Part shown: in pieces, positions 35,583-57,424 of the stretch | How positions within the stretch are numbered: position 1 is the first letter of the stretch | Layout: each line of letters starts with the position of its first letter | DNA from: Candidatus Bathyarchaeota archaeon | GTDB taxonomy: Archaea; Thermoproteota; Bathyarchaeia; 40CM-2-53-6 | Length of the DNA: 62,479 nt | NCBI GenBank assembly: GCA_005882895.1 | Contig: VBBD01000007.1 | Coordinates: 1 to 62,479 of the forward strand | Direction: 5' to 3' | Translations under genes and position numbers: made by a program | The notes under the pieces: generated by a model | What the model was told of the DNA's origin: nothing | Database searches by the model: none | What the model saw: the letters and a program-made list of their open reading frames with translations, nothing else

Positions 35583-36887
35583 TTGACCAGCACGGTCAGC
35601 CTCTCCGTTCTAGACCAATTCGGTGGCAGCAAACTCCTATCACCCGAAAAGATCCGATGGATAAAACCAACACCCCTGCCGACAAAGCCGGTCGAACTCG
35701 CCTTCCGCGAAGCCTTAGCAGCCCCGATAGGCGCGAAACCCTTCGAGAGAGAAAAGTGCTGGAGCCCCGCCATCATCTTCTCCGACTTCACACGAAAACA
35801 CTCACCCTTCATCTCACAACTCATCAACATGATAGAACCAAAAACCGATGATATCAAAATCATCTGCGCCGGAGGAACCCACGTTCCATCCGAGCCAGAC
35901 TTCATCAAGAAAGTAGTCGGGGAAGACATCTACAAACGCTACCAGAAGAACATCAGAGTAAGCTCGGTGAAAAACCCCGCGAGCAAGTACGAGTGGATCG
36001 GAGTCACGAGCAGAGGCACCCCCGTCGAGCTAAACAAGGAACTATTCGATAGAGACCTTCTAATCTCAACCCTCAACGTTCAACCACACTATTTCGCAGG
36101 CTACGAGGGAGGGGCGAAAGCGCTCCTCCCCGGCTGCTCAGGACTCAAGACCATAACCATCAATCACGGATACGTAATCGGAAACCCGAACTGCAGAGAG
36201 CTCGCGATCAAAGGCAACCCCACGAGGGAGGACATGAACGAGGTACCTGGTGTTCTCCGGGAGTTCATGAAGATAGAGCATCGAATCCTCGATTTCGTCC
36301 TCAACCAAGACGGGACACTGGTCAAAGCGGCTTATGGAGATCCCAACCTTGCACACCAACAACTCGCCGAGAACTATTCCCGCAGAGCCCACTCCGTCAC
36401 CTCACGCCCATCAGCCCTTGTTGTCACGGTTGCAGACGGACCCGCCGGAACGAACCTGTACCAGGCCCTCAAGGCCGCAACCTTCGGCGCGGGCCTCGTG
36501 AATCCCTCACACCAGCCCAAGTCCACGGTAATGTTGCTTGCCTCGCTTGAAACGGGAATAGGAGGAGACGCGTTCAAGGCCGAGATGGAAACCTACGGCA
36601 AGATGGAACCCGAGATGGTAATCGAGGACTTGAAGAAGCGAGTTAAGCTTGGAAAGGTCACAGAGGCCTCGCAGAAGCCGAACCGCTTCTCCTTGGACGA
36701 CAAGAAGACAGACTTCATCGTGGTCTCACCTAAAGCGCCTGCCCCAGTTGAAGAGCTCTTGAACAAGACGAGGGTCAAATTCTTCAGATCAATAGACGAC
36801 GCGCTGAGAACCCTCGACCAGAAGCTGTACGAGAAGGATGTTGCGGTGATTCCCTATGGCTCATCCACCGTTCCAGTAGCCTCATAG
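35583..36887 (+). CDS. LarA-like protein (lactate racemase/DUF2088 domain)
   Basis: SPAIIFSDFTRKHSPFI; IICAGGTHVPS; LNVQPHYFAGYEGGAKALLPGCSGLKTITINH. Confidence 0.85.
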   Translation: MTSTVSLSVLDQFGGSKLLSPEKIRWIKPTPLPTKPVELAFREALAAPIGAKPFEREKCWSPAIIFSDFTRKHSPFISQLINMIEPKTDDIKIICAGGTHVPSEPDFIKKVVGEDIYKRYQKNIRVSSVKNPASKYEWIGVTSRGTPVELNKELFDRDLLISTLNVQPHYFAGYEGGAKALLPGCSGLKTITINHGYVIGNPNCRELAIKGNPTREDMNEVPGVLREFMKIEHRILDFVLNQDGTLVKAAYGDPNLAHQQLAENYSRRAHSVTSRPSALVVTVADGPAGTNLYQALKAATFGAGLVNPSHQPKSTVMLLASLETGIGGDAFKAEMETYGKMEPEMVIEDLKKRVKLGKVTEASQKPNRFSLDDKKTDFIVVSPKAPAPVEELLNKTRVKFFRSIDDALRTLDQKLYEKDVAVIPYGSSTVPVAS

Positions 36888-42089: not shown

Positions 42090-43247
42090 TTGAGAACTTA
42101 TCCTGCAAACCAGGCTCAGGCGATCGTGCAAGCACGGCATGAGTTCAATATCGGGTTGATGAGGCCTGTTGTCGATGAGGAGATGATTGAGGCCGGTATT
42201 TCCGCGCTACGAAACGAGAGGCTCGTTATGGGCGAGAGTGTCTACAAGTTCGAGGAAGAGTTTGCACGGTACTGCGGCACGCGTTACGCGGTTTCGACAG
42301 CTTCAGGGACTGCTGCGCTACAAATTGCCTTCCAGTCGATAGGGATCCACGGTGACGATGAGATCTTGACAACTCCCTTTTCGTTTTTTGCAACCTCTAA
42401 CGCAATCATTCACGCAGCTGCGCAGCCGAGGTTTGCGGACGTTGAGGATTCCGGATTCAACTTGGATCCTGAAAACGCGTCTAAGAAAATCACCTCGAAG
42501 ACCCGAGCAGTTGAGCCGGTGCATCTCTACGGCCAGCCAGCACGAGTGGACGAATTCCTAGCAATGGCGGAAGACCGAGGTATCAGTATCGTTGAAGATT
42601 GTTGCCAGGCCCATGGTGCAGAGTATGATGGAAAGAAAGTTGGATCGCTTGGTCTAGCGGGATGTTTTTCTTTCTACTCTAGCAAGAACATGACCGTCGG
42701 CGGTGACGGTGGCATGATAACGACCAACGACAAGAATCTTGCCGATGCTGCTCGATCCTTCAGAGATTGCGGGAGGGCGTCCAAATACGAAATGTCCCGT
42801 GTCGGATATACATCGAGGCTGAATACTGTTAACGCCGCGATCGGCAGGGTCCAGCTTCGAAGGCTCGACAAGTGGAACAGTCTTAGAAGGGGAATTGCCA
42901 GCCTCTACCGGCGGGATCTCGAAGGCGTAGAAGGAATCACGCTCCCGCCCGAAGAGAATTCGAAAGAGGTCCCCGTGTACCACTTGTTCGTGATCAGAAG
43001 CGAGCACCGCGATCGAATCGCGAAGCGGCTCGAGGAGAAGGGAATAGAGTCTGCCATCCACTATCCCATTCCAATTCATCTCCAAGACTACTACCGGCGC
43101 CAGTATGGATTCTCAGAAGGATCCTTCCCCGTATCAGAGAAGCTTGCGAAAGAAGTTCTCAGCCTACCCATGCACCCGATGCTCTCAGAACAAGAGGTCA
43201 GTCTAGTCTCTCGAACAGTTCGAGAGGCTGTTCATCAGGACTCCTGA
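42090..43247 (+). CDS. DegT/DnrJ/EryC1 (WbpE-like) sugar aminotransferase
   Basis: YAVSTASGTAALQIAFQSIG; IVEDCCQAHGAEYDGKKVG; FSFYSSKNMTVGGDGGMI (PLP Lys). Confidence 0.93.
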   Translation: MRTYPANQAQAIVQARHEFNIGLMRPVVDEEMIEAGISALRNERLVMGESVYKFEEEFARYCGTRYAVSTASGTAALQIAFQSIGIHGDDEILTTPFSFFATSNAIIHAAAQPRFADVEDSGFNLDPENASKKITSKTRAVEPVHLYGQPARVDEFLAMAEDRGISIVEDCCQAHGAEYDGKKVGSLGLAGCFSFYSSKNMTVGGDGGMITTNDKNLADAARSFRDCGRASKYEMSRVGYTSRLNTVNAAIGRVQLRRLDKWNSLRRGIASLYRRDLEGVEGITLPPEENSKEVPVYHLFVIRSEHRDRIAKRLEEKGIESAIHYPIPIHLQDYYRRQYGFSEGSFPVSEKLAKEVLSLPMHPMLSEQEVSLVSRTVREAVHQDS

Positions 43248-43269
43248 AACCACTAGGAAGGCTTGGAGC

Positions 43270-44274
43270 GTGGAACCTCTCAGAATCGCCGTCATCGGGG
43301 CGGGGTATTGGGGAAAGAAGGTCATCCGTGAGACTCTGGACGTTGGCAGGACTACAGGACGCGTCCAAGTTCACGCAGTGGTTGACAACTCCCCTACCAT
43401 GCTGTCCCACTGCCAGAATGAGTTTGGCCCCCTAGACTACAGGCTAGACTATCATGAGCTTCTCACAGACCCGAAACTGTCAGGGGTACACATCTGCTCC
43501 CCGAACGCGACCCACTTCGAAGTCGCCTCTGACTTCCTCAAAGCCGGAAAGAATGTTCTAGTTGAAAAGCCGCTTACTCTAAGATCGAAAGAGGCGTATC
43601 AGCTAGTGCAGCTGGCGAAGGACAATAATCTCGTCCTCTGCACGGGCCATATTCACAGGTTCAACAATGGTGTCAGGGAGCTAAGAAGAGCCCTCTCCAG
43701 CGGCGTCCTCGGCGATCTCTACTACCTCAGATTCGTCTGGACAGGTTTCCTGCCTCCCCAAGGATTCCGGGAAGTCATCACGGACCTTGCGCCGCATCCG
43801 TTCGATATTTGCAATTACCTTTTGGACATGTGGCCTAACAAGGTTACTTGCAGGGGTAAAGGATACAGGACAAAGGAGAACGAGGAAATGGCTTTCATAA
43901 CAGCAGAGCACTCAGGAGAGCTTACCGCGCAAGTCGAGGTTAGCTGGTTGAGTAGAGAGAAGCGGAGAGAGGTAACTGTGGTCGGGAGTAAGGCGGAAGC
44001 GTACTTGGATTGCTCTGACCAGAAAGGCGTTCTCCGGACTGCAGAGGGTACCCAGCAGATATCGATCACGCCTAGCAACACCTTGAGGGAAGAGGTCGAA
44101 CACTTCCTGAATTGTATAACCAGCCATCAAGACTCCAAACCCTTTTCCAACCAGTCAGACGGGGTCCTAGGGGCCCGGGTAGTCAGCGTCCTGGAATCTG
44201 CACGTGAATCTATCCGTCAGGAGCGCACGATGCAGATTCAGATGCCTACTGCCGAGGAGATCCCTGCAAAGTGA
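43270..44274 (+). CDS. Gfo/Idh/MocA (WbpB-like) sugar dehydrogenase
   Basis: LRIAVIGAGYWGKKVIRE; HICSPNATHFEVASDFLKAGKNVLVEKPLTL; GHIHRFN. Confidence 0.9.
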   Translation: MEPLRIAVIGAGYWGKKVIRETLDVGRTTGRVQVHAVVDNSPTMLSHCQNEFGPLDYRLDYHELLTDPKLSGVHICSPNATHFEVASDFLKAGKNVLVEKPLTLRSKEAYQLVQLAKDNNLVLCTGHIHRFNNGVRELRRALSSGVLGDLYYLRFVWTGFLPPQGFREVITDLAPHPFDICNYLLDMWPNKVTCRGKGYRTKENEEMAFITAEHSGELTAQVEVSWLSREKRREVTVVGSKAEAYLDCSDQKGVLRTAEGTQQISITPSNTLREEVEHFLNCITSHQDSKPFSNQSDGVLGARVVSVLESARESIRQERTMQIQMPTAEEIPAK

Positions 44275-44735
44275 GGAGCAGCTCGAAATATTCCGTTATC
44301 AAGAAATCTAGGATCGGGAAAGACTCCCGAGTCTACGACCAGGTAAACCTTTACGGCTGCACGATTGGCAAGAACACGAAAATAGACGCTTACGTTTACA
44401 TCGAAGAAGGCGTCACTATAGGGGATAATTGTAAGGTCAGACCGTTTGTTTTCATCCCGACCGGAGTAACGATAGAGGACAGTGTCTTCATCGGGCCCAA
44501 CGTCACTTTTACCAATGACAAATATCCCAGGAGCAGCGGTGACTGGTCTCTGCTCAAGACCCGGATCAAAAGATTCGTGTCCATAGGAGCTGGGTCCACC
44601 ATAAACCCAGGAGTAACCATCGGCGAGAACGCCCTCATCGGGTCCGGCTCCGTGGTTACAAAAGACATCCCCAGCAACGCAGTTGCAGTCGGTAATCCAG
44701 CCCGGGTCGTCGGCCAGAGAGAACCGCACAGGTAA
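44271..44735 (+). CDS. WbpD-like left-handed beta-helix N-acetyltransferase
   Basis: TIGDNCKVRPFVFIPTGVTIEDSVFIGPNVTFTNDKYPRSSGDW; hexapeptide repeats; NAVAVGNPARVVG. Confidence 0.9.
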   Translation: MRSSSKYSVIKKSRIGKDSRVYDQVNLYGCTIGKNTKIDAYVYIEEGVTIGDNCKVRPFVFIPTGVTIEDSVFIGPNVTFTNDKYPRSSGDWSLLKTRIKRFVSIGAGSTINPGVTIGENALIGSGSVVTKDIPSNAVAVGNPARVVGQREPHR

Positions 44736-44791
44736 GGGACTCGCTTTCGAAAACTCTTGCGATAATTCCAATCTACAGCGAAGCCCCGTCA

Positions 44792-45475
44792 GTGGGAACG
44801 GTCCTAGAGAGATTCGGGCCGGGCGTCGTTGACGAGATTTGTCTAGTCGCTGACAGCCCATCGCCCAGGACGCTGAAGCGGATCGAAGAAGCGCGCCGAA
44901 GCATCGATGTTCCAGTATACTTGATCCATAATCCTGAGAGGAAGGGAATCGGTTACGCTATCAGGCAGGGATACAGTTACGCCCTCGATAACAAGTTTGA
45001 CCTGATTGTGGTGATGGCTGGGAATGGGAAAGATGATCCTAGGGAAATTCCTAGGCTGACCGCACCGATACTGAAAGAGGGGACGGACTACGTCCAAGGA
45101 TCTCGGTTCCTCCCCGGAGGACGACGGAAAAAGAATCCGTTCCTCAGAAGCATCTTCACCCGCCTGTTTCCGGTCATCTGGACTTCGATGACCGGTGTCC
45201 ACTGTACGGAGGTTACGAACGGATTCAGAGCCTATAGATCCTCGATTCTAAAAGACCCCCGGATCAACGTATGGCAGAGCTGGCTTGACAACTACGAGCT
45301 GGAGTATTATCTGCACTACAAGGCTCTCACACTAGGCTACAAGTTTGCAGAACGGCCGGTCTCAAAAGACTATACGGAAATCAGGAAGGGAAAATACTCA
45401 CACATTTCTCCCCTCAAAGACTGGTGGCAGATAGTTGGGCCCGTATTCATGTTGAAACTCGGGGTCAAAAAATAG
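44792..45475 (+). CDS. Family 2-type glycosyltransferase (true N-terminus likely upstream of 44792)
   Basis: Upstream frame reads SLSKTLAIIPIYSEAPSVGTVLERFGPGVVDEICLVAD; LIVVMAGNGKDDPREIPRLT; YVQGSRFLPGG. Confidence 0.82.
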   Translation: MGTVLERFGPGVVDEICLVADSPSPRTLKRIEEARRSIDVPVYLIHNPERKGIGYAIRQGYSYALDNKFDLIVVMAGNGKDDPREIPRLTAPILKEGTDYVQGSRFLPGGRRKKNPFLRSIFTRLFPVIWTSMTGVHCTEVTNGFRAYRSSILKDPRINVWQSWLDNYELEYYLHYKALTLGYKFAERPVSKDYTEIRKGKYSHISPLKDWWQIVGPVFMLKLGVKK

Positions 45476-45477
45476 CC

Positions 45478-47070
45478 TTGGAACCGGCTATCGCTCAAGG
45501 CATAGTCCTGAGAGGCAACCAGGACAGAGACGTTCGAGTCTTGCGAGAATATGCTGAATTCTGGAAAATACCGTACGTTGTCGATCCTCTCCGTGAAGAG
45601 AACCAGATTCTCGTCTCGTCTGGGATGATACCGCGGACCGAAGTAAGGAACAGTGCAAGTGTCATCATTTTCCCATCGGGACCGGAAGACTCCAAAGATA
45701 TTGCGAAAGAATACGGCCTTACGTTCCATACTAGGGACACCCTGCTTCGACTTCCAGTTAGTCCCGACGTCTCCGTTGCAATAAGAACCAGAGTGAACGA
45801 GTTCTCAGGAGCCGGCATCGAGCCAGTGATCAGCGATGGCAAAACAGCAGTGTTGTCCAAGATCCGCGATACACGCATTCACATATCATCGGTGGATCTG
45901 GTCTCCGAGTACGAGAGACTGGTAACCGGGGGATTAGAGGAAGCTCCGAGCAGAAAATTCCGACTTGTGACAAAGTTTCCATTCTCGTATCGAGCGATAC
46001 CGTCTTTCATCAGGAATCGAGCATTCAGAACCCCCGATGCTGTCACGGAATTCACGGAGGACAAGCTTTCCCCTGTTGAATGCCTTCGGGCTGTCTTTCT
46101 GGCAAGCCTAGTTGTCGCGGCAGGACTTGCAATACCGCGGATAGCCTTCTGGCGGAAGGGAAAATCCCACGCTCTGGCGATCACCCACGATGTGGAGACG
46201 AGACTGGGCCTTGATGAGGGCGCGGGAAGATGCGCGGACATAGAGTCTAAGCTCGGGGTCCGTTCGACCTGGAACATTCCCAGCGAACGATATCCCCTCT
46301 CATCCCAACTACTGATCTGCCTTGCAAGTACGGGGGAAGTTGGGGGGCACGATACGAAACATGATGGCCGGCTGATTTTCGAGAGCTTTGAGAACAAGGT
46401 GGAAAGGGTCGGCAGGTGCAAATCCCGACTTGAATCCCTCTGCAAAAAGGAGGTTCGAGGGTTCAGGTCCCCTCTACTCCAGCATGGACGAGAACTACTA
46501 GGCGCGCTGGGAAAGGCAGGGTACATGTACGATTCATCCGTTCCAAGCTGGGAACCTCTCTCGCCCACATCCCTCAGGCCACATGGGGTCGGAACTGTCT
46601 TCCCATTCTTCATCTCGGGGATGTTAGAGATCCCTGTTTCTCTACCTCAGGACCACCAGCTCATCAGGGTGAGCGGTCTCGCCACTTCGGAGGCTGTTGA
46701 GGAGCTCTTTCGGATTTCGCGATGGATCCACGGTGTCGGTGGCGCGTGTGTATTACTAGTTCACCCGGATTACGAGTTTGGCCGGCCCGAGAATGCGGAG
46801 GAGTACTATCGCCTTCTCGACAGGTTCAGGTCTGATCCCGAGTGCGAGGTTCTAACGCTAGGGGAATTGGCGCAGTGGTGGATTCATCGGGCCAACTCCC
46901 GCATCGAGACGCGCAACGGGAACGTGTCCATCCAGTATGGGGATAGGGACCGGCCTGGCGATCTTGAACTTGAGATAGTGACTGGGTACGGTAGTGATGG
47001 ATTCAAGGTTTCCCGCCTCGACAGCCCAGAAATAGTCCCGCTCCGTGAGCACACTTTCAGGGGGGAATAG
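45478..47070 (+). CDS. Polysaccharide-deacetylase-like protein
   Basis: HALAITHDVETRLGLDEG (NodB-like motif); GGHDTKHDGRL; VRGFRSPLLQHGRELLGALGKAGYMYDSSVP; TTG start at 45478. Confidence 0.78.
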   Translation: MEPAIAQGIVLRGNQDRDVRVLREYAEFWKIPYVVDPLREENQILVSSGMIPRTEVRNSASVIIFPSGPEDSKDIAKEYGLTFHTRDTLLRLPVSPDVSVAIRTRVNEFSGAGIEPVISDGKTAVLSKIRDTRIHISSVDLVSEYERLVTGGLEEAPSRKFRLVTKFPFSYRAIPSFIRNRAFRTPDAVTEFTEDKLSPVECLRAVFLASLVVAAGLAIPRIAFWRKGKSHALAITHDVETRLGLDEGAGRCADIESKLGVRSTWNIPSERYPLSSQLLICLASTGEVGGHDTKHDGRLIFESFENKVERVGRCKSRLESLCKKEVRGFRSPLLQHGRELLGALGKAGYMYDSSVPSWEPLSPTSLRPHGVGTVFPFFISGMLEIPVSLPQDHQLIRVSGLATSEAVEELFRISRWIHGVGGACVLLVHPDYEFGRPENAEEYYRLLDRFRSDPECEVLTLGELAQWWIHRANSRIETRNGNVSIQYGDRDRPGDLELEIVTGYGSDGFKVSRLDSPEIVPLREHTFRGE

Positions 47071-47075
47071 TCTTC

Positions 47076-48218
47076 CTGATCGACTCCGTCCTCATTGCCT
47101 GGATTCTCATAGGCCTCGTCCATATCGGGATTCCTCTCGCATACTTCGGCGTAATGGGGAGATTGGCCTCTTCGAGAGGTTATGGCCTTAACCTCTCCAA
47201 GGAATGGGAGCCAACTGTCAGCATCATCGTCCCAACATACAACGAGAGTCCTGTGGTTGAGAAGAAGCTCCGCAACCTCGCCGAGATCGATTATCCAAGG
47301 GAAAAGGTCGAGCTTATCGTGGTTGACAGCGCTTCGTCTGACGGGACCGCTCAGCAAGCCCGGAAGGCCTTCGAGGAAATGGGCTTCAACGGAGTTGTGT
47401 TGGAGGAAACAGAGCGGAAAGGTAAGGCGTCGGGTCTCAACACAGGTTTGAAGCGCGCTTCAGGAGAGCTCGTCTGTATCAGTGACGCTGAGTGCTTGTG
47501 GAACCAGGAGACTCTGCGAAACGCCGTAAAGTATCTCTCGGATCCTTCAGTCGGCTCTGTCTCGGGAGTTCACGCTAGCCAAGCGCTGGGGTCTAGTCTG
47601 CCGGTCAGCATGGAGAATTCCTACAGGTCGATCTATCGCGCGGTGAGAATTGGCGAGTCCAAAGTTCACAGCACTCCCGTCGCTGAGGGGGAGATTCAGC
47701 TCTTTCGTCGGGCGGATATGCCGAGTTTTAACACTCGGATCGGAGGGGATGACACGGATGCTGCCTTGGCAATGGTGGAGAAAGGGCTTCGCGCGATCAG
47801 CGCTGAGGACGTGGTTTTCTTCGAGCCTACCCCCAGCGTTTGGGGCGCTCGGTTCAGGCAGAAGATACGGCGAGGCCAGCACGTGATCCAGGCATTTCTT
47901 GGTCATCGACGCCTGTTCACCGGAAGGTCGACTCCCGCGGGAATCATCTTTCCGATGGAGTTTTTCCTGTACGCTGTCAACCCGGTTCTCTTTGTCCCAT
48001 TTGCGGCGTTGACGATCTGGGTAGTCGCGATCTTTCCACTGGTTCTCTACATGGCATTAGCTGGGCTAGCTGTGATAATCTTGGTTCCTAGTCTCAGGCG
48101 GATGGGAGCGACGTACCTAACTAACAACGTGATCATGCTGGCCGCCCTGTATCAGGAGGCGCGGGGGAACAAACAGCTGACATGGGAAAAGATCGAAGAA
48201 AACCGGCTGGGTCAATGA
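47076..48218 (+). CDS. Membrane-associated family 2 glycosyltransferase
   Basis: PTVSIIVPTYNESPVVEKKLRNLAEIDYP; GDDTDAALAMVEKG; QKIRRGQHVI; N-terminal TM upstream of the called ATG (47154) in the same frame. Confidence 0.87.
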   Translation: MIDSVLIAWILIGLVHIGIPLAYFGVMGRLASSRGYGLNLSKEWEPTVSIIVPTYNESPVVEKKLRNLAEIDYPREKVELIVVDSASSDGTAQQARKAFEEMGFNGVVLEETERKGKASGLNTGLKRASGELVCISDAECLWNQETLRNAVKYLSDPSVGSVSGVHASQALGSSLPVSMENSYRSIYRAVRIGESKVHSTPVAEGEIQLFRRADMPSFNTRIGGDDTDAALAMVEKGLRAISAEDVVFFEPTPSVWGARFRQKIRRGQHVIQAFLGHRRLFTGRSTPAGIIFPMEFFLYAVNPVLFVPFAALTIWVVAIFPLVLYMALAGLAVIILVPSLRRMGATYLTNNVIMLAALYQEARGNKQLTWEKIEENRLGQ

Positions 48219-48412: not shown

Positions 48413-49522
48413 ATGGAGAGCATAACGTATGTGAGTCCCCGATATCCTCCGTATATTGGAGGGGTGGAGACTCATGTCTCAGAGCTCACCACAAGGGCAT
48501 CTGGCCGGTTTCGCAGGGTTTCTGTTGTGACCACAGACCCCTCAGGGGGCCTTCCCTCGACCCAGAGCCTAGGGAATGGTTCGACGATATTCAGAGTGAG
48601 ATCCTTCGCACCGGGGGGAAACTATCATTTTCCAATGTCGGCGAGTTTTGTCAAGATCCTTCGATCTTGTCGTTCGCGTATTCTCCACTTGCATAGCATA
48701 CACGATGTTCCAGGTCCACTAGCGGCAATCCTTGAAAGCAAGAGTGGTAGCTCGATTGTCTTCACTCCTCATTTTCATGGAAAATTCAGTTCTAGCCTTG
48801 GAGAGCTATTCTTCGAAGCATCTCGGCCGGTGTTGGGCATGGTCATGGACCGGGTGGATTGTCTGATCTGCGTGTCGGAGTTCGAAGCGGGAATAATGGG
48901 CGAGGCCTTTCCCAGTGCGGCGCGCAAGATTACCGTGATACCTAACGGTGTGGACTCTAGACTTCTCTCTCGGTATTCATGGTATCCGCCTGCGTCTCCC
49001 AGAATCCTTTTCGTTGGCCGGTTGGAGAAGTACAAGAATGTGGACAAGATCTTGACGGCGTTCGCCGTCTTGAAGGAAAAGCACCCTTCTCTCAAGCTCA
49101 CTGTCGTGGGGAGAGGACCGGTCAAGGAAGAACTCTTGTCCCAAGCGGAGCATCTCAAGCTAGGTTCGAGCGTGGAATGGCTGGAGGGGTTGACGAAACC
49201 GGAGCTATACGAACTCTACCAGTCGAGCACCGTGTTTGTTCTACCATCCTATCTTGAGGCTTATGGGATAGTGGTCGCTGAGGCCGTGGCTGTTGGCACC
49301 CCTGCCATAGTGGCGAACTCCTCCGCCTTATCCGAGTTTGTAACGGCCGGATTGGCTACGGCTGTTGAGCCTCCGGTCGAGATGGAGAAATTGGTCAATG
49401 CAATGTCCCTGGTTCTGGAGGATCCGAAATCATACTCGGCTAGGAAAAGAAGCTCTGACATGATTCTGTCATGGGATGACGTGGCAGCGAAGACCTTCGA
49501 AACGTACCAGTCCCTTCTTTGA
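48413..49522 (+). CDS. GT4-family glycosyltransferase
   Basis: SPRYPPYIGGVETHVSEL; VIPNGVDSRLL; ILFVGRLEKYKNVDKILTAF; EAYGIVVAEAVAVGTPAIV. Confidence 0.94.
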   Translation: MESITYVSPRYPPYIGGVETHVSELTTRASGRFRRVSVVTTDPSGGLPSTQSLGNGSTIFRVRSFAPGGNYHFPMSASFVKILRSCRSRILHLHSIHDVPGPLAAILESKSGSSIVFTPHFHGKFSSSLGELFFEASRPVLGMVMDRVDCLICVSEFEAGIMGEAFPSAARKITVIPNGVDSRLLSRYSWYPPASPRILFVGRLEKYKNVDKILTAFAVLKEKHPSLKLTVVGRGPVKEELLSQAEHLKLGSSVEWLEGLTKPELYELYQSSTVFVLPSYLEAYGIVVAEAVAVGTPAIVANSSALSEFVTAGLATAVEPPVEMEKLVNAMSLVLEDPKSYSARKRSSDMILSWDDVAAKTFETYQSLL

Positions 49523-50592
49523 GAGAGGTGAATCATTTGCGGATGAATTTTCTCGAATCGATGGGAATAGTGAAAACAGCCAGAAAAGAGGCTGACTCAT
49601 TGATCCTGGCTCGAGTCCTCCTTCGAAAGGAGTCCCTGCCGATCGACTCTGAGAAATTCGTGGAGCTCGCTAAGCTCAACAAGGTACTGCTCAGGACAGC
49701 TTCCCGGCTGAGGGTTCCTGCCCCGGTCGCACGGGCCGCGAAGGACGGAGCAACAGAGGCATGGGAACTATACGACCAAATGAGCCGGGCCTTCGAGGAG
49801 CGAGGAATCCCCTTCGTGCTGATAAAATCCTTCGACTCCCTGCCCGACATAGGCCATGACCTAGATTTTCTGGTTCCCTCTCCTCCTGAGTTCCGCAGAG
49901 CCAAGGATCTACTTGTGACCGAATACAGGGTTCGCCCGCAGGATCTGACACATTGCGACAAACTTGTCGGCAAATTCAGCTGCTACCTGCCGAAATTTGT
50001 GCACGACTTCGAAATCTACCCTACTATCAGCCAGCTCGGAGAAGAATACCTGGCACCGGAAGACGTTCTGAAACACCGCAAGAAAGAAAATGTAAACGGC
50101 CGCGAAGTTTGGCTCACATCTGACGTGGACGGCGTTCTGATAAGAGTTATCCATGCAATGTTTCGTCACAACGCTCTGAAGCTCTCTGACATCATCGATT
50201 TTGCCAATATGACTCGTAGTTGTCCCAGTCACGAGATAATAGACGGAATTGAGAGGACTGGGACCCAGGACGCGTTCCTCTTCTATCTCTCAATCGTGGA
50301 GCGATTCTTAGAAGCGTGCGAGGTCGATTTTCCCCACGTTACGCGTTTGAGAGAAGAAGCAGTAAGGAATTTCGGCGCCGACAGGCTGGGCTTTCTTGGA
50401 AAGGATAGGCTCGTTCTTCCCTACCGCATCCCTCTTCCTGCGCAAGTAATGGTCTTCCTCCTCAAGGCGGCACGGGATACTGCGAGGGGCCGTCTCGGAA
50501 GTGCTGTCAGATGTTGGCTCGCTCCTCCCCTATTGCTTCTGAACTTTGTCAACGCGCTATCGGCGGACCGGCTTCTCAAGAAGGTCTGGTGA
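49519..50592 (+). CDS. Uncharacterized nucleotidyltransferase-fold protein
   Basis: FEERGIPFVLIKSFDSLPDIGHDLDFLVPSPPEFRRAKDLL. Confidence 0.68.
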   Translation: MREVNHLRMNFLESMGIVKTARKEADSLILARVLLRKESLPIDSEKFVELAKLNKVLLRTASRLRVPAPVARAAKDGATEAWELYDQMSRAFEERGIPFVLIKSFDSLPDIGHDLDFLVPSPPEFRRAKDLLVTEYRVRPQDLTHCDKLVGKFSCYLPKFVHDFEIYPTISQLGEEYLAPEDVLKHRKKENVNGREVWLTSDVDGVLIRVIHAMFRHNALKLSDIIDFANMTRSCPSHEIIDGIERTGTQDAFLFYLSIVERFLEACEVDFPHVTRLREEAVRNFGADRLGFLGKDRLVLPYRIPLPAQVMVFLLKAARDTARGRLGSAVRCWLAPPLLLLNFVNALSADRLLKKVW

Positions 50593-51231
50593 ATGCGAAC
50601 GGTGCTCGTGACACTGAGTGGGACCCATGGAACCGGAAAGTCCACGAATGCCGGTAAATGCTACTATCTCCTGAACAAGCAAGGTCTAAGGTTCTCCTAT
50701 CTCAGGCATCAAGATCTCTTGGACCCGCTTGGTTTCATACTGAGAAGAGCAGCGAGGATTCTTAGGTTCGAGAGTACCACCGACTTCGAGAGGATAGCGC
50801 CCGTACGCGTCCTTTCATCAGCTTACTATCTATTCATCTATCTGCCATTCCTGGCGGGCGGAATCAGGATTCGTAAGCTCCTCGGATACAGTACTGTGGC
50901 GGACCGGTACCTGTACGATCTTATGGCCGGCTCTTGGGGCAACGGGATGAAGGTGCCGTTGGAAAAGCTGCTCTTACGCATGGTTCCCCGCCCTGACGTT
51001 TCCTTTGTCTTCGATGCTGACGTTAAGAGAATTCTCACCGATCGGCCGGAGCACACTTTCGAGTACATCATCAACGAGAAGGCGCAGTACAGCAAGCTTG
51101 TGGGCGCCTTTGGGCTAAGAAGGGTCAGCACTGACGATCCTCCCGAGACAGTCTGGAACAGCATCCTTCACGACATTAAAGCCGCATTCCCTCAGGGCGA
51201 CCAAGAGAGAAGACCGGGCCTTGGTGCTTGA
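50593..51231 (+). CDS. Thymidylate-kinase-like P-loop kinase
   Basis: VTLSGTHGTGKSTNAGKCYYLLNKQG; VADRYLYDLM; FVFDADVKRILTDRPEH. Confidence 0.8.
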   Translation: MRTVLVTLSGTHGTGKSTNAGKCYYLLNKQGLRFSYLRHQDLLDPLGFILRRAARILRFESTTDFERIAPVRVLSSAYYLFIYLPFLAGGIRIRKLLGYSTVADRYLYDLMAGSWGNGMKVPLEKLLLRMVPRPDVSFVFDADVKRILTDRPEHTFEYIINEKAQYSKLVGAFGLRRVSTDDPPETVWNSILHDIKAAFPQGDQERRPGLGA

Positions 51232-52754
51232 TATTGAAGGCTCTGGTAATAGGCCTGGACGCGGCTTCTCCTCACCTAATTGAGAAGTGGATTGACAAAC
51301 TTCCCAATCTCAAACGTCTCACCCAGCGAGGCGTGCACGGGGTCCTCGAATCAATTGTACCACCGTCAAGTGTGCCGGCCTGGCAATGCTTTGCCACGGG
51401 GAAGAATCCGGCGAAGATAGGGAACCTAGGTTTCATCTACATCGGCAGGGACCTTCAGATCAAACACGGCAGGACAATTCCTGAAATGGGATGCATATGG
51501 GACATTTGTTCTAAGGCTGGGTTTAGGGTAGGAGTCTTCAACGTTCCGGGAACCTATCCCCCTTACCCGGTAAACGGGTTCATGGTATCCGGCTTCCCCA
51601 TTCAACCCGGGAAGGCCTGGACATACCCAGCCGATCTGATGAAGAAGCTCGATTCCGCAGTGGGAGGCTACGAGGCTGACGTGCCACTGGCAAAGCCGTC
51701 AGAGATGAAAGGTGGAGAGAGAGCCTACCTGTCAGAGGTCGAGCGGCTTCACTCAAAAAGTGTCGAATCCGCTAGACTGCTCCTCGAATGGTTCCGGCCC
51801 GACCTGTTCGTCATGACTCTCCAAGGCCTGGACATGGTCCAACACGACTTTTGGCATTTCATGGAAGATCCAGCGTCGCAGTACGCCAGCGTCGTACAGG
51901 ACTGGTACGTGAAGATGGATGAGGCGATTGGGAAACTGACCCAGAGTGCAAAAGAAGATACATACGTCCTGATCATGTCGGACCACGGCTCCGTTCCGGT
52001 CGCTGGTTCTCTCTACATCAACGAGTTCCTGAGGTCCCAAGGCCTACTAGCTTGCAACGTCAATGGAGGCGAGCGAGCTGGGGAAAAAGGATCCTCTCGG
52101 AAGATCCGAGAGTTCGCCATAAGACATGTGCCCCCACGGATCATTAGAACCATCTACAGTCTCTCTCCGAGTTTCATAGCAAGCAAGCTAACAGTGTCCG
52201 CTGAGATGGAAAGAGTCCTACGGGATCTGGTCCAGAGCATTGATTGGACGCGGACCCTAGCTTTCTCAACTGGCGGACATGGAGCGGCGATCTATGTGAA
52301 CTCCCAACCTGAAAGGCCTAAGGAATTGTCAACAACCACTGCTCGGTCGGAAATCGTTCGCAAGATCTGCGACCTCTTGAGCGACCTGACCGATCCCGTT
52401 TCAGGAGAGAAAGTTCAGCCCGTCTTCCATCTCGGCGAGAAAGTTTTCCGGGGGCCGTATAAAAGCGAGGCACCAGATCTTTGTGTGGAACTTTTCGAGG
52501 AGGACAAGAAGGTTCAGGTCAACCCGCGACTGGGGTCGCGGAAGATATGGAGCTCGAGCTCGCATTTCGCGGCCACGCACGTGAGGGACGGGTTTTGGGC
52601 TCTGACCGGCCCACAAGTTAGACCAGGGATTACTCAAGATGCGGGGATTCTCGACTTGGCACCAACCCTGCTCAATCTCCTAGGCTTGCGGGTTGAGGAG
52701 GATTTTGACGGACAGATCCTTGACTCAGTATTTTCTAAGACCGGATCACGATAG
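51228..52754 (+). CDS. Alkaline phosphatase superfamily (type I phosphodiesterase/nucleotide pyrophosphatase-like)
   Basis: ALVIGLDAASPHLIEKW; VPPSSVPAWQCFATGKNPAKIGNLGF; YVLIMSDHGSV; LDLAPTLLNLLGL. Confidence 0.88.
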   Translation: MILKALVIGLDAASPHLIEKWIDKLPNLKRLTQRGVHGVLESIVPPSSVPAWQCFATGKNPAKIGNLGFIYIGRDLQIKHGRTIPEMGCIWDICSKAGFRVGVFNVPGTYPPYPVNGFMVSGFPIQPGKAWTYPADLMKKLDSAVGGYEADVPLAKPSEMKGGERAYLSEVERLHSKSVESARLLLEWFRPDLFVMTLQGLDMVQHDFWHFMEDPASQYASVVQDWYVKMDEAIGKLTQSAKEDTYVLIMSDHGSVPVAGSLYINEFLRSQGLLACNVNGGERAGEKGSSRKIREFAIRHVPPRIIRTIYSLSPSFIASKLTVSAEMERVLRDLVQSIDWTRTLAFSTGGHGAAIYVNSQPERPKELSTTTARSEIVRKICDLLSDLTDPVSGEKVQPVFHLGEKVFRGPYKSEAPDLCVELFEEDKKVQVNPRLGSRKIWSSSSHFAATHVRDGFWALTGPQVRPGITQDAGILDLAPTLLNLLGLRVEEDFDGQILDSVFSKTGSR

Positions 52755-52777
52755 CTTGTTCTCTCTGGTTTGGTTCG

Positions 52778-53434
52778 ATGCGTAGACGAGGCCGCCTCAT
52801 ATCTTTCTCGGGCATAGACGGTAGTGGGAAGACGACACAGGTCAAGTTGCTGGAGAATCGGCTCAGGGAGAATGGGGTTGAAACTGTGAAGATTTGGTCA
52901 AGGTGGCGGCCGCTCCTCTCGCTTCCCCTCTTGCAAGTTCTTCGTCGAACCGGCCAGGTGCGAGTTCACAAAGCGGATTTCCTTTCTATTGTAGAGTTCC
53001 ACAACCCCAAGAACGAGGCACTCGCGTCTCTCTGGTGCTTTGCGACGCAGTTAGAAAATCTCCTGAAAACGATCCTGAAGGTATTCTTTCCCATGGCGCT
53101 AGGACGAACTGTCGTTTGTGACCGATATTCGCTTGACTTGTTGGTTGATGGTATGTCCGATCTTCATGATCCGCCGACGAAAATGAGGCTCGGTTTCAAG
53201 CTGCTCAAGCTTCTACCAAGGCCCGAGGAGGCTTTTCTGATAGACGTCGATGCGGGATCGGCTTACGGGCGAAAGCCTGACCTGCCGAGCGTTTCCCATA
53301 ACGTGCAGAGGATCCACCTCTACCTCAGCATGTGCGAGCAATCTGGCGTGAAAGTAATGGATGGCAGAAGGCCGGCGGAGACAATTCATCAGGATGTCTG
53401 GAATCTCGTATCCTCGATGGTAACATCTCGGTGA
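52778..53434 (+). CDS. Thymidylate-kinase-like P-loop kinase
   Basis: LISFSGIDGSGKTTQVKLLENRLRENG; VVCDRYSLDLLVDG; FLIDVDAGSAYGRKPDLPS. Confidence 0.84.
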   Translation: MRRRGRLISFSGIDGSGKTTQVKLLENRLRENGVETVKIWSRWRPLLSLPLLQVLRRTGQVRVHKADFLSIVEFHNPKNEALASLWCFATQLENLLKTILKVFFPMALGRTVVCDRYSLDLLVDGMSDLHDPPTKMRLGFKLLKLLPRPEEAFLIDVDAGSAYGRKPDLPSVSHNVQRIHLYLSMCEQSGVKVMDGRRPAETIHQDVWNLVSSMVTSR

Positions 53435-53444
53435 GCGATGAAGT

Positions 53445-54572
53445 TTGGAAGTATGTTTCGTCGGGGACGATGCGCATCCACCTTGGAATCATGCGAGCTC
53501 TGCATTGACAAAGCGGATGATAGAGTGTCTCTCGCCAGAGGTGACTTGTACGCTGGTTACCACCTCCGAGGAAGATGTCCGGCATTTCAAGACAGGTTGG
53601 AGTACGGTCACGACGAAGCCTTCTGGAAGGCGGGCTTTGGACGCGGCGAAGCTTGGACTGCTCGCTACTCAATGCTCCGCTGACATCATCCACGTCGTAG
53701 GAACTAACGCGTTAGTCTTCTCACCAGTCTGCAAATTGCTCGGAACCAGCGGTGCAATCGTACGACACATCTTCACCCCCTACGATAGGAAGGATGGAAT
53801 GGTCCGTCCACTAAGGTGGCTGGTCAACAAGCTCTTCGTAGGCGCGTACGCATTTACCACTCCATGGATAGGCCGATGGGATAGAGATCTTGGCTCGGGA
53901 ATACGAAAATTGCTCGTAAGGCCTCCCATTGACTGCGAACTCTATCGACCATATGACGTGGAAAATGACCATTCGGCAAATGGTGGTTCGCATGAATACA
54001 GCCTTCTCTACATGGGCCCGCTCTGGCCCTCTCGGTTTCCAGCCGAGAACGTTCTAGGAGCGCTTAGGCTCTTGCTTGGTAAGGGATTTGATATCGGACT
54101 GAACGTCCTCACCAGCGCTAGAAGTTCTGTAAGTCTGTGCGAAAATGTGTTGGCTCTTGCGAAGCGCCTCAGCGTGGACCGAAACATGGCGTTGGAAAGG
54201 AAGGATCTTTCGGAGATCGACAGGGTCCGGGCGTACAATGCGGCTGACGCGATAATTTTCCCATACGTAGGTCCCGAACCAGAGCAGCTTGCCGATCCGC
54301 CCTTTGGAATCCTGGAGTCGATGGCGTGCGGGAGAGTCGTTATCTCGACGCGAGTACTAAGCGTCCCCGAAGTTGTGAGCGATGGAAATACTGGTTTCCT
54401 AATCGAGTCCGCCTCATCAAACGACATTTGCAGCGGTGTCGTATACGCACTGACCGCTCCGGACAGGAAGGAAGTTGGAATCGGTGCACGGGAGAAGATC
54501 GTTGGACAGTTCAGCTATCCCGCGGTTCGTCGAAGTCTGCTCGAGGCATACGAGTCCCTCCTGGTGCGTTGA
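53445..54572 (+). CDS. GT4-family glycosyltransferase
   Basis: LLYMGPLWPSRFPAENVLGALRLLLGKG; PPFGILESMACGRVVISTRVLSVPEVVSDGNTGFLI. Confidence 0.85.
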   Translation: MEVCFVGDDAHPPWNHASSALTKRMIECLSPEVTCTLVTTSEEDVRHFKTGWSTVTTKPSGRRALDAAKLGLLATQCSADIIHVVGTNALVFSPVCKLLGTSGAIVRHIFTPYDRKDGMVRPLRWLVNKLFVGAYAFTTPWIGRWDRDLGSGIRKLLVRPPIDCELYRPYDVENDHSANGGSHEYSLLYMGPLWPSRFPAENVLGALRLLLGKGFDIGLNVLTSARSSVSLCENVLALAKRLSVDRNMALERKDLSEIDRVRAYNAADAIIFPYVGPEPEQLADPPFGILESMACGRVVISTRVLSVPEVVSDGNTGFLIESASSNDICSGVVYALTAPDRKEVGIGAREKIVGQFSYPAVRRSLLEAYESLLVR

Positions 54573-56114: not shown

Positions 56115-57296
56115 CTAGCGATAGTGTCTCCTGACCAGTATTACCGCGGTGACAGTCAAGGTTAGTCCGACGGCGAGTCCTATGAGGAGCGGCGAGGATG
56201 AGGAGAGGTTGCTGAGCAGGCACTGGAGGCAGAACCCGCTTGGAGCGGATGGTGGAGTGACGATAGCTGTTAAGAATTCTGACATTGTGGTTGAACCGCA
56301 GTCGTTTCCTGAGACTAGGCAACTTAGCGACCAGTTGGATTCGATCGTGGCAAGCCAGTTCAGATGGGTAAACTTGGTCGACGAAGAGTAGTGGAGTTTT
56401 GCTCCGGGACCGGCGACTACGAAGTAGACTGGAGTTGTTCCATATGTGCCCGTAGTGGGCTCGTCCAATGTAATCATAACGGTTGCAGACAGGTCGGTCT
56501 CAAATGTTTTCGTAGTAAGTATCGCCGGGACAACAACTGATAGCCAGCTGTCCGCCTGTTGCATGTTACAGTCGTGGCTATCATCGATTACGTTGGGGGT
56601 TACCCATGAGAAGTGAGGAGCAGTACCATTAAGGTCACTCACCAAGCTGCTGATGACAGAGGTCGTTACAGATGTTCCGCACGAGGTTGCGCCTCCGCTG
56701 AGTCCTGAGGGGACTACTAACGAACATCTTGTTGAGTTGTTCACGATGTTACCGAAGTAGACAAACGGATTATGATGCGCGACATAGTCTGTTCCGCCAT
56801 CAGAACCGCCATTACCGTTGCAGATGTCAGCGGCGGGCATTCCTTCCATGTAGCCTTTCCAAGATACTCCGGCTTTGGAAAATCTGTCAATTACATTACA
56901 AGGGCTTGAACAGGTCCAAGGAGCGGTAACACAACCACCGGAGTTTGGGGGTGGGTCAGATGTACATCCCCAGGTCTGCGCCGAGACTAAGCCGAGATAA
57001 TTGGGTAAGCTTGGATTCCACGTAGAGGAGACCGGGCCCACATAATTGGTACTATTGGCGTACAAATTGCCCAGGGACATCATATAGGGAGCGCAGCCGC
57101 TGCAAGTTACAGATGATAGAGGATGATTCTCTAATATTATGAAAACGATGTGGTTGGAGTAAGAAGGGCTGGGTGATGCGAAGGCCTGGAAGCCCATGGA
57201 ACCTTGGCTGTTGATTGGAGAAATAGTTGTCTGTGCCAGGGTAACCATTCCCAACAGGATGGAACACGTGAAAAAGGTCCGGAGGCTCACTCTCAT
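56115..57296 (-). CDS. Secreted phosphoesterase-family (acid phosphatase/phospholipase C-like) protein, C-terminally anchored
   Basis: HIVFIILENHPLSSVTCSGCAPYMMSLGNLYANSTNYV...NPSLPNYLGLVSA; SWVTPNVIDDSHDCNMQQADSWL; VMITLDEP; C-terminal TM. Confidence 0.83.
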   Translation of the reverse strand: MRVSLRTFFTCSILLGMVTLAQTTISPINSQGSMGFQAFASPSPSYSNHIVFIILENHPLSSVTCSGCAPYMMSLGNLYANSTNYVGPVSSTWNPSLPNYLGLVSAQTWGCTSDPPPNSGGCVTAPWTCSSPCNVIDRFSKAGVSWKGYMEGMPAADICNGNGGSDGGTDYVAHHNPFVYFGNIVNNSTRCSLVVPSGLSGGATSCGTSVTTSVISSLVSDLNGTAPHFSWVTPNVIDDSHDCNMQQADSWLSVVVPAILTTKTFETDLSATVMITLDEPTTGTYGTTPVYFVVAGPGAKLHYSSSTKFTHLNWLATIESNWSLSCLVSGNDCGSTTMSEFLTAIVTPPSAPSGFCLQCLLSNLSSSSPLLIGLAVGLTLTVTAVILVRRHYR

Positions 57297-57424
57297 CTCA
57301 TTTCCTTGGCGATCACGTTCAATATTCAACGCCGCTGTTCCCTCTCCATCCACTCTATGTGTCTTACAACCAGAGTACATGGGAAGGTTGCTGATCCTAG
57401 ACTTGGAATCAGGCTTCGAGCATT

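Follow-up and report, generated by a model that had tools for sequence, protein, structure and literature searches.

Why would a cluster of glycan biosynthesis genes in a soil archaeon encode two proteins that resemble thymidylate kinase? The locus lies in a stretch of 62,479 nucleotides of Candidatus Bathyarchaeota DNA, here referred to as the window. Its core encodes, all on the + strand, NT5, a nucleotidyltransferase-fold protein (49543-50592; PF14907) with a GHDxD ... HDFE motif; K1, a P-loop kinase of the TMPK fold with a DRYxxD motif and the P-loop GTHGTGKS (50593-51231); AP, an alkaline-phosphatase-superfamily phosphodiesterase (51228-52754; PF01663, 123 bits); K2, a second DRYxxD kinase (52778-53434; PF02223); and the glycosyltransferase GT4b (53445-54572; PF13692/PF00534). 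Junctions range from -4 to +23 bases, with no spacer between NT5 and K1, a 4-base overlap of K1 with AP, and gaps of 23 and 10 bases separating AP from K2 and K2 from GT4b, respectively. NT5 likely starts at 49543 rather than at the TTG at 49519. Immediately upstream is the glycosyltransferase GT4a (48413-49522, +; PF00534, 130 bits), and Pfam assigns the proteins flanking the block to the GT4 and GT2 families. The remainder of the cluster (42090-48218, +) encodes a DegT aminotransferase, a UDP-GlcNAc 3-dehydrogenase-like oxidoreductase, a hexapeptide acetyltransferase, a GT2, a deacetylase-like protein and another GT2. Because of the upstream aminotransferase, oxidoreductase and acetyltransferase together with the GT2 and GT4 proteins, we regard the setting as a glycan cluster, and this gene set would perhaps yield a 2,3-diacetamido sugar. 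The block is, thus, real as it had been described from its letters: the reading frames, their shared direction, the short or overlapping junctions and the glycosyltransferase neighbors are all there.

The sequence-only reading considered two housekeeping dTMP kinases in one glycan operon improbable, and the data bear this out. That K1 or K2 could be a housekeeping tmk located in the cluster by chance is suggested by their Pfam and NCBIfam names, which are weak. Against PF02223 (cut-off 27 bits), K1 scores 13.1 bits and is under the cut-off, and K2 scores 31.7 bits; against TIGR00041, they score 19.6 and 34.6 bits, respectively, both far under the equivalog cut-off of 83.25 bits. By contrast, the genome of the window encodes a canonical tmk elsewhere (G000:C10, 22588-23136; 107 bits), and a tmk above the TIGR00041 cut-off is present in 17 of the 18 genomes checked, the exception (G018) being a draft. 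In an alignment of 18 TMKs, 18 K1, 11 K2 and 27 kinases encoded beside NT5 elsewhere, the thymine-reading Arg (AADR / NRWE) is present in 17/18 TMKs but in 0/18 K1, 0/11 K2 and 0/27 of the other kinases. Conversely, an Asp is present at K1 position 109 (DRYxxD) in 18/18 K1, 11/11 K2 and all 27 other kinases with sequence there, and in 0/18 TMKs, in which the last position of the DRYxxS motif is Ser, Ala or Gly. In TMPK structures, the Arg and the Ser of DRYxxS are parts of the thymidylate pocket. An inspection of the base pocket, which had been recommended together with the search for a canonical tmk, accordingly finds the thymine pocket replaced in K1 and K2 (Arg in 0/29, Asp in 29/29). Neither K1 nor K2 is a housekeeping dTMP kinase; the canonical tmk elsewhere and the loss of the Arg and the Ser refute this explanation, to which we assign next to no probability. 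Instead of a sole tmk with TMP-binding residues in a neighborhood that is not conserved, we find a tmk elsewhere and a synteny that is kept.

K1 and K2 share with thymidylate kinases (PF02223, TIGR00041) the TMPK fold, the P-loop and the DR motif, and the top 50 PDB fold matches of the K1 AF2 model (pLDDT 89.5) are all TMPKs. They differ from these kinases in having lost the Arg and the Ser and gained the Asp, and in the tree, where the TMKs make up one side of a branch with a support of 100/99. By comparison, K1 and K2 are thus TMPK-fold kinases with a rebuilt thymidylate pocket. K1 forms a single clade (100/100), the deeper placement of which is unsure and possibly subject to a long-branch effect, while K2 forms a weak clade (84/55) that groups with kinases adjoining NT5 in other genomes. 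K1 and K2 represent distinct lineages, each with its own history, and of the two only K1 is part of a conserved cassette.

This cassette emerges from a comparison of related genomes, all soil MAGs and mostly labelled Candidatus Bathyarchaeota. Based on mechanical ORF calls, NT5, K1 and AP are contiguous and co-directional in 16 of 18 loci of the family (the window and 15 of 17 others) with protein identities of 52-84%, and because the order is kept at this level of identity, the block reflects more than chance. In the two exceptions, K1 is inverted beside AP (G007) or the contig ends after K1 (G011). K1 orthologues are present in 18 of 21 genomes of the family, and none were found elsewhere in the order. 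K2 behaves differently. Relatives of K2 are present in 11 genomes of the family, and the window and its two closest relatives (G009 and G013) are the only places where K2 adjoins AP; in the remaining genomes, it is kilobases away, on another contig or not found. GT4b adjoins K2 in the window, G009, G013 and G020. In a divergent arrangement in G003, an NT5 relative with 34% identity, which scores just under the PF14907 cut-off, is followed by a PF01663 protein, a K2-type kinase and then a glycosyltransferase. One family of soil Bathyarchaeota, therefore, conserves NT5-K1-AP as a cassette, to which K2 is an optional and mobile addition. Thus, the association with the cluster that had been proposed for checking is conserved, but the idea of the whole block as one unit has to be narrowed to NT5-K1-AP, because K2 varies in position and is often apart from AP. 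Among the other genes of the window, the polysaccharide-deacetylase-like protein (45424-47070, +), which is below the Pfam cut-off, is retained in nearly all clusters of the family. A phosphoesterase-family protein (56115-57380, -; PF04185) has relatives close to the same clusters in several genomes, and a protein of the LarA-like nickel-dependent racemase family (35583-36887, +; PF09861) has relatives that are 80-95% identical where they flank the cluster.

Outside the family, it is the pairing of kinase and NT5 that recurs. We searched 300 genomes of the phylum with PF14907 only and examined the 40 loci that resulted, 23 of which have a full-length or profile-confirmed NT5; PF14907 matches of 230-275 residues that failed the NT5 profile were excluded from this count. 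A DRYxxD-type kinase is encoded within two genes of NT5, or in the same protein, at 15 of these 23 other archaeal loci; eight have no such kinase within two genes, and two of these eight are at contig ends. Among eight further loci from a search with the NT5 profile, the kinase is adjacent or nearly so in five, within about 4 kb in two and absent in one, and it is adjacent at 3/3 bacterial NT5 loci (two from Elusimicrobia, one from Acidobacteriia). Because 14 genomes of 1.3-2.4 Mb, which were picked mostly for a kinase-NT5 pair seen there and serve as a background of kinases per genome only, have only 1-4 kinase-profile matches each, some of them an ordinary tmk, a kinase within 2 kb of NT5 would be expected by chance in about 1% of genomes. 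Moreover, the two are fused in a 536-residue kinase-NT5 protein in the archaeon G185 and, in the opposite domain order, in a 765-residue NT5-kinase protein with a low PF14907 score in G406, a genome from the same phylum as the Acidobacteriia locus. That the two domains have been joined in either order argues strongly that they are functionally coupled, and together with the conserved pairing makes the kinase-NT5 coupling well supported. By these sequence comparisons, many archaea and some bacteria carry the pairing, which probably serves to add phosphate-linked groups to glycans. A literature search that covered few of the subscription journals returned nothing on the kinase-NT5 pairing or PF14907. 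We considered bacterial PF14907 proteins with high scores (94 of 149 genomes of the phylum of locus L094) as part of the same system and set them aside, since most have no DRYxxD kinase nearby. One such protein from Acidobacteriota has a neighbor weakly similar to Hpr_kinase_C. Variations on the pairing include two tandem DRYxxD-type kinases ahead of one NT5 (L098:6804-8306, G300) and a transketolase-like gene downstream of NT5 in L093 and L094 (PF00456 in L094), with a sugar transferase (PF02397) also downstream in L094, hinting at an unusual sugar pathway.

NT5 matches PF14907 (NTP_transf_5), which Pfam describes as uncharacterised, with 31.9 bits at a cut-off of 31.2 bits. It shares the domain and the catalytic motif with PF14907 proteins of bacteria and archaea, but the sampled high-scoring Acidobacteriota members differ in their neighborhoods, as described above. 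The GHDxD and HDFE residues are invariant in 17 relatives, and the D-x-D and a third acidic residue are kept. A search of the PDB by sequence found no solved relatives, and the top fold matches of the AF2 model (pLDDT 89.7) are nucleotidyltransferases, although weak. NT5 resembles a pol-beta-type nucleotidyltransferase rather than the usual sugar-1-phosphate nucleotidyltransferases. LicD/fukutin-type phosphotransferases, which transfer phospho-groups to glycans, also have the nucleotidyltransferase fold and may resemble NT5 in this respect; in the PDB, NT5 has no significant match by sequence or fold.

In AP, the metal ligands and nucleophile (D11, S48, D202, H206, D252, H253 and H451) are present in 16/16 proteins. 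AP aligns with the phosphonoacetate hydrolase structures 3szy and 3t02, in which the position of Ser48 is Thr and Ala, respectively, and Ser48 is likely the nucleophile. AP belongs to a nucleotide pyrophosphatase family. In other Thermoproteota, AP relatives have an ATP sulfurylase (13/20) or an APS kinase (13/20) within three genes, and both in 11/20 (the loci examined include L261, L264, L266, L269, L274 and L278); our literature search found no paper on a role of this AP-superfamily (PF01663) protein in sulfate activation. Both types of gene group combine a homologous AP with a nucleotidyltransferase and a P-loop kinase, but in the sulfate-activation groups ATP sulfurylase and APS kinase replace NT5 and K1, and the nucleophile position of their AP is mostly Thr instead of Ser. 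The same phosphodiesterase family is, thus, found beside two different pairs of nucleotidyltransferase and P-loop kinase, a parallel in composition and not in homology of the other partners. At the other archaeal NT5 loci, AP is not beside NT5. We, therefore, rejected AP as the general partner of the kinases and consider its link to kinase-NT5 chemistry lineage-specific. The earlier suggestion of an unusual phospho-enzyme system stands, but the widely conserved partner of the kinases is NT5 and not AP.

Based on these data, we suggest that the NT5-K1-AP cassette carries out glycan phospho-modification, with glycan precursors as its substrates and the cytosol as its site of action (probability roughly 0.55). 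In this model, the K1-type kinase would use ATP to phosphorylate a hydroxyl group of a sugar, a polyol or a lipid-linked glycan intermediate. NT5 would act second, on the phosphate made by the kinase, and transfer a nucleotidyl, sugar or phospho-X group, with a diester or an activated intermediate as the product. AP, a phosphodiesterase that would rely on metal ions and a nucleophilic Ser, would then cleave, and in that way edit, or transfer the phospho-group, and the neighboring glycosyltransferases would finish the glycan after the AP step. The order of the steps, the substrate, the reaction of NT5 and the role of AP are all putative, and the substrate of K1 and K2 might instead be another nucleotide. 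No transmembrane stretch was found in NT5, K1, AP or K2, which fits a cytosolic stage of glycan assembly. The nearest functional precedent for the kinase-NT5 pair is the maturation of the lasso peptide pseudomycoidin, in which PsmK is reported to phosphorylate a Ser and PsmN, which is annotated as a nucleotidyltransferase, to attach one or two hexoses to this phosphate, although host enzymes may contribute (PMC9266682, PMC8498205). The two systems are alike in pairing a kinase with a gene annotated as a nucleotidyltransferase, with phosphate added first and hexose second in the precedent. They differ in that PsmK is an HPr-kinase-like enzyme acting on a peptide in a bacterium, while K1 and K2 are TMPK-like and the cassette lies in a glycan cluster and includes AP.

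Other functions can be envisaged for the same genes. The cassette could make a nucleotide-activated building block, with the kinase generating a sugar-, polyol- or acid-phosphate, NT5 converting it to an NDP-linked donor, AP acting as a quality-control pyrophosphatase and a glycosyltransferase using the donor. Donor synthesis usually proceeds from kinase to nucleotidyltransferase, and the adjacency and fusion of kinase and NT5 as well as the glycosyltransferases next door agree with this possibility. However, the pol-beta-type appearance of NT5 speaks against it, as does PsmN, which acts on a phosphorylated acceptor, and we consider it doubtful. Alternatively, K1 and K2 could recycle the NMPs (UMP, CMP, dTMP) released by the glycosyltransferases, and AP could be a nucleotide pyrophosphatase; the TMPK fold, the family of AP and the archaeal AP relatives beside the nucleotide-using ATP sulfurylase and APS kinase would all be in line with this. 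Yet, all members have lost the base-reading Arg and have an Asp in place of the DRYxxS Ser, and recycling leaves the pairing and fusion with NT5 unexplained, making this explanation unlikely. The neighbors of the AP relatives could also point to a sulfation or PAPS-like module; this is largely refuted by the absence of ATP sulfurylase in all 11 genomes of the soil Bathyarchaeota family analysed, K1 is TMPK-like and not an APS kinase, and we regard such a module as highly improbable.

Returning to glycan phospho-modification, the undescribed part of the system is the kinase family. In a broader proposal, in which we place somewhat less confidence than in an even bet, DRYxxD TMPK-fold kinases would represent a family of enzymes that phosphorylate glycans or their precursors, is widespread among archaea and some bacteria and is paired with PF14907 proteins for phosphodiester-linked glycan modifications, and one family of soil Bathyarchaeota would have added a phosphodiesterase from a family that elsewhere accompanies sulfate activation. 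Many genes in archaeal and bacterial glycan clusters that would be called dTMP kinase by similarity would be misnamed, and the combination of the Asp after DRYxx, the missing thymine Arg and the adjacency to NT5 provides a signature that separates such kinases from tmk. PF14907, in turn, acquires a specific partner and a reaction that can be put to the test. For the uncultured soil Bathyarchaeota, the cassette points to surface glycans that are phosphorylated or bear phosphodiesters.
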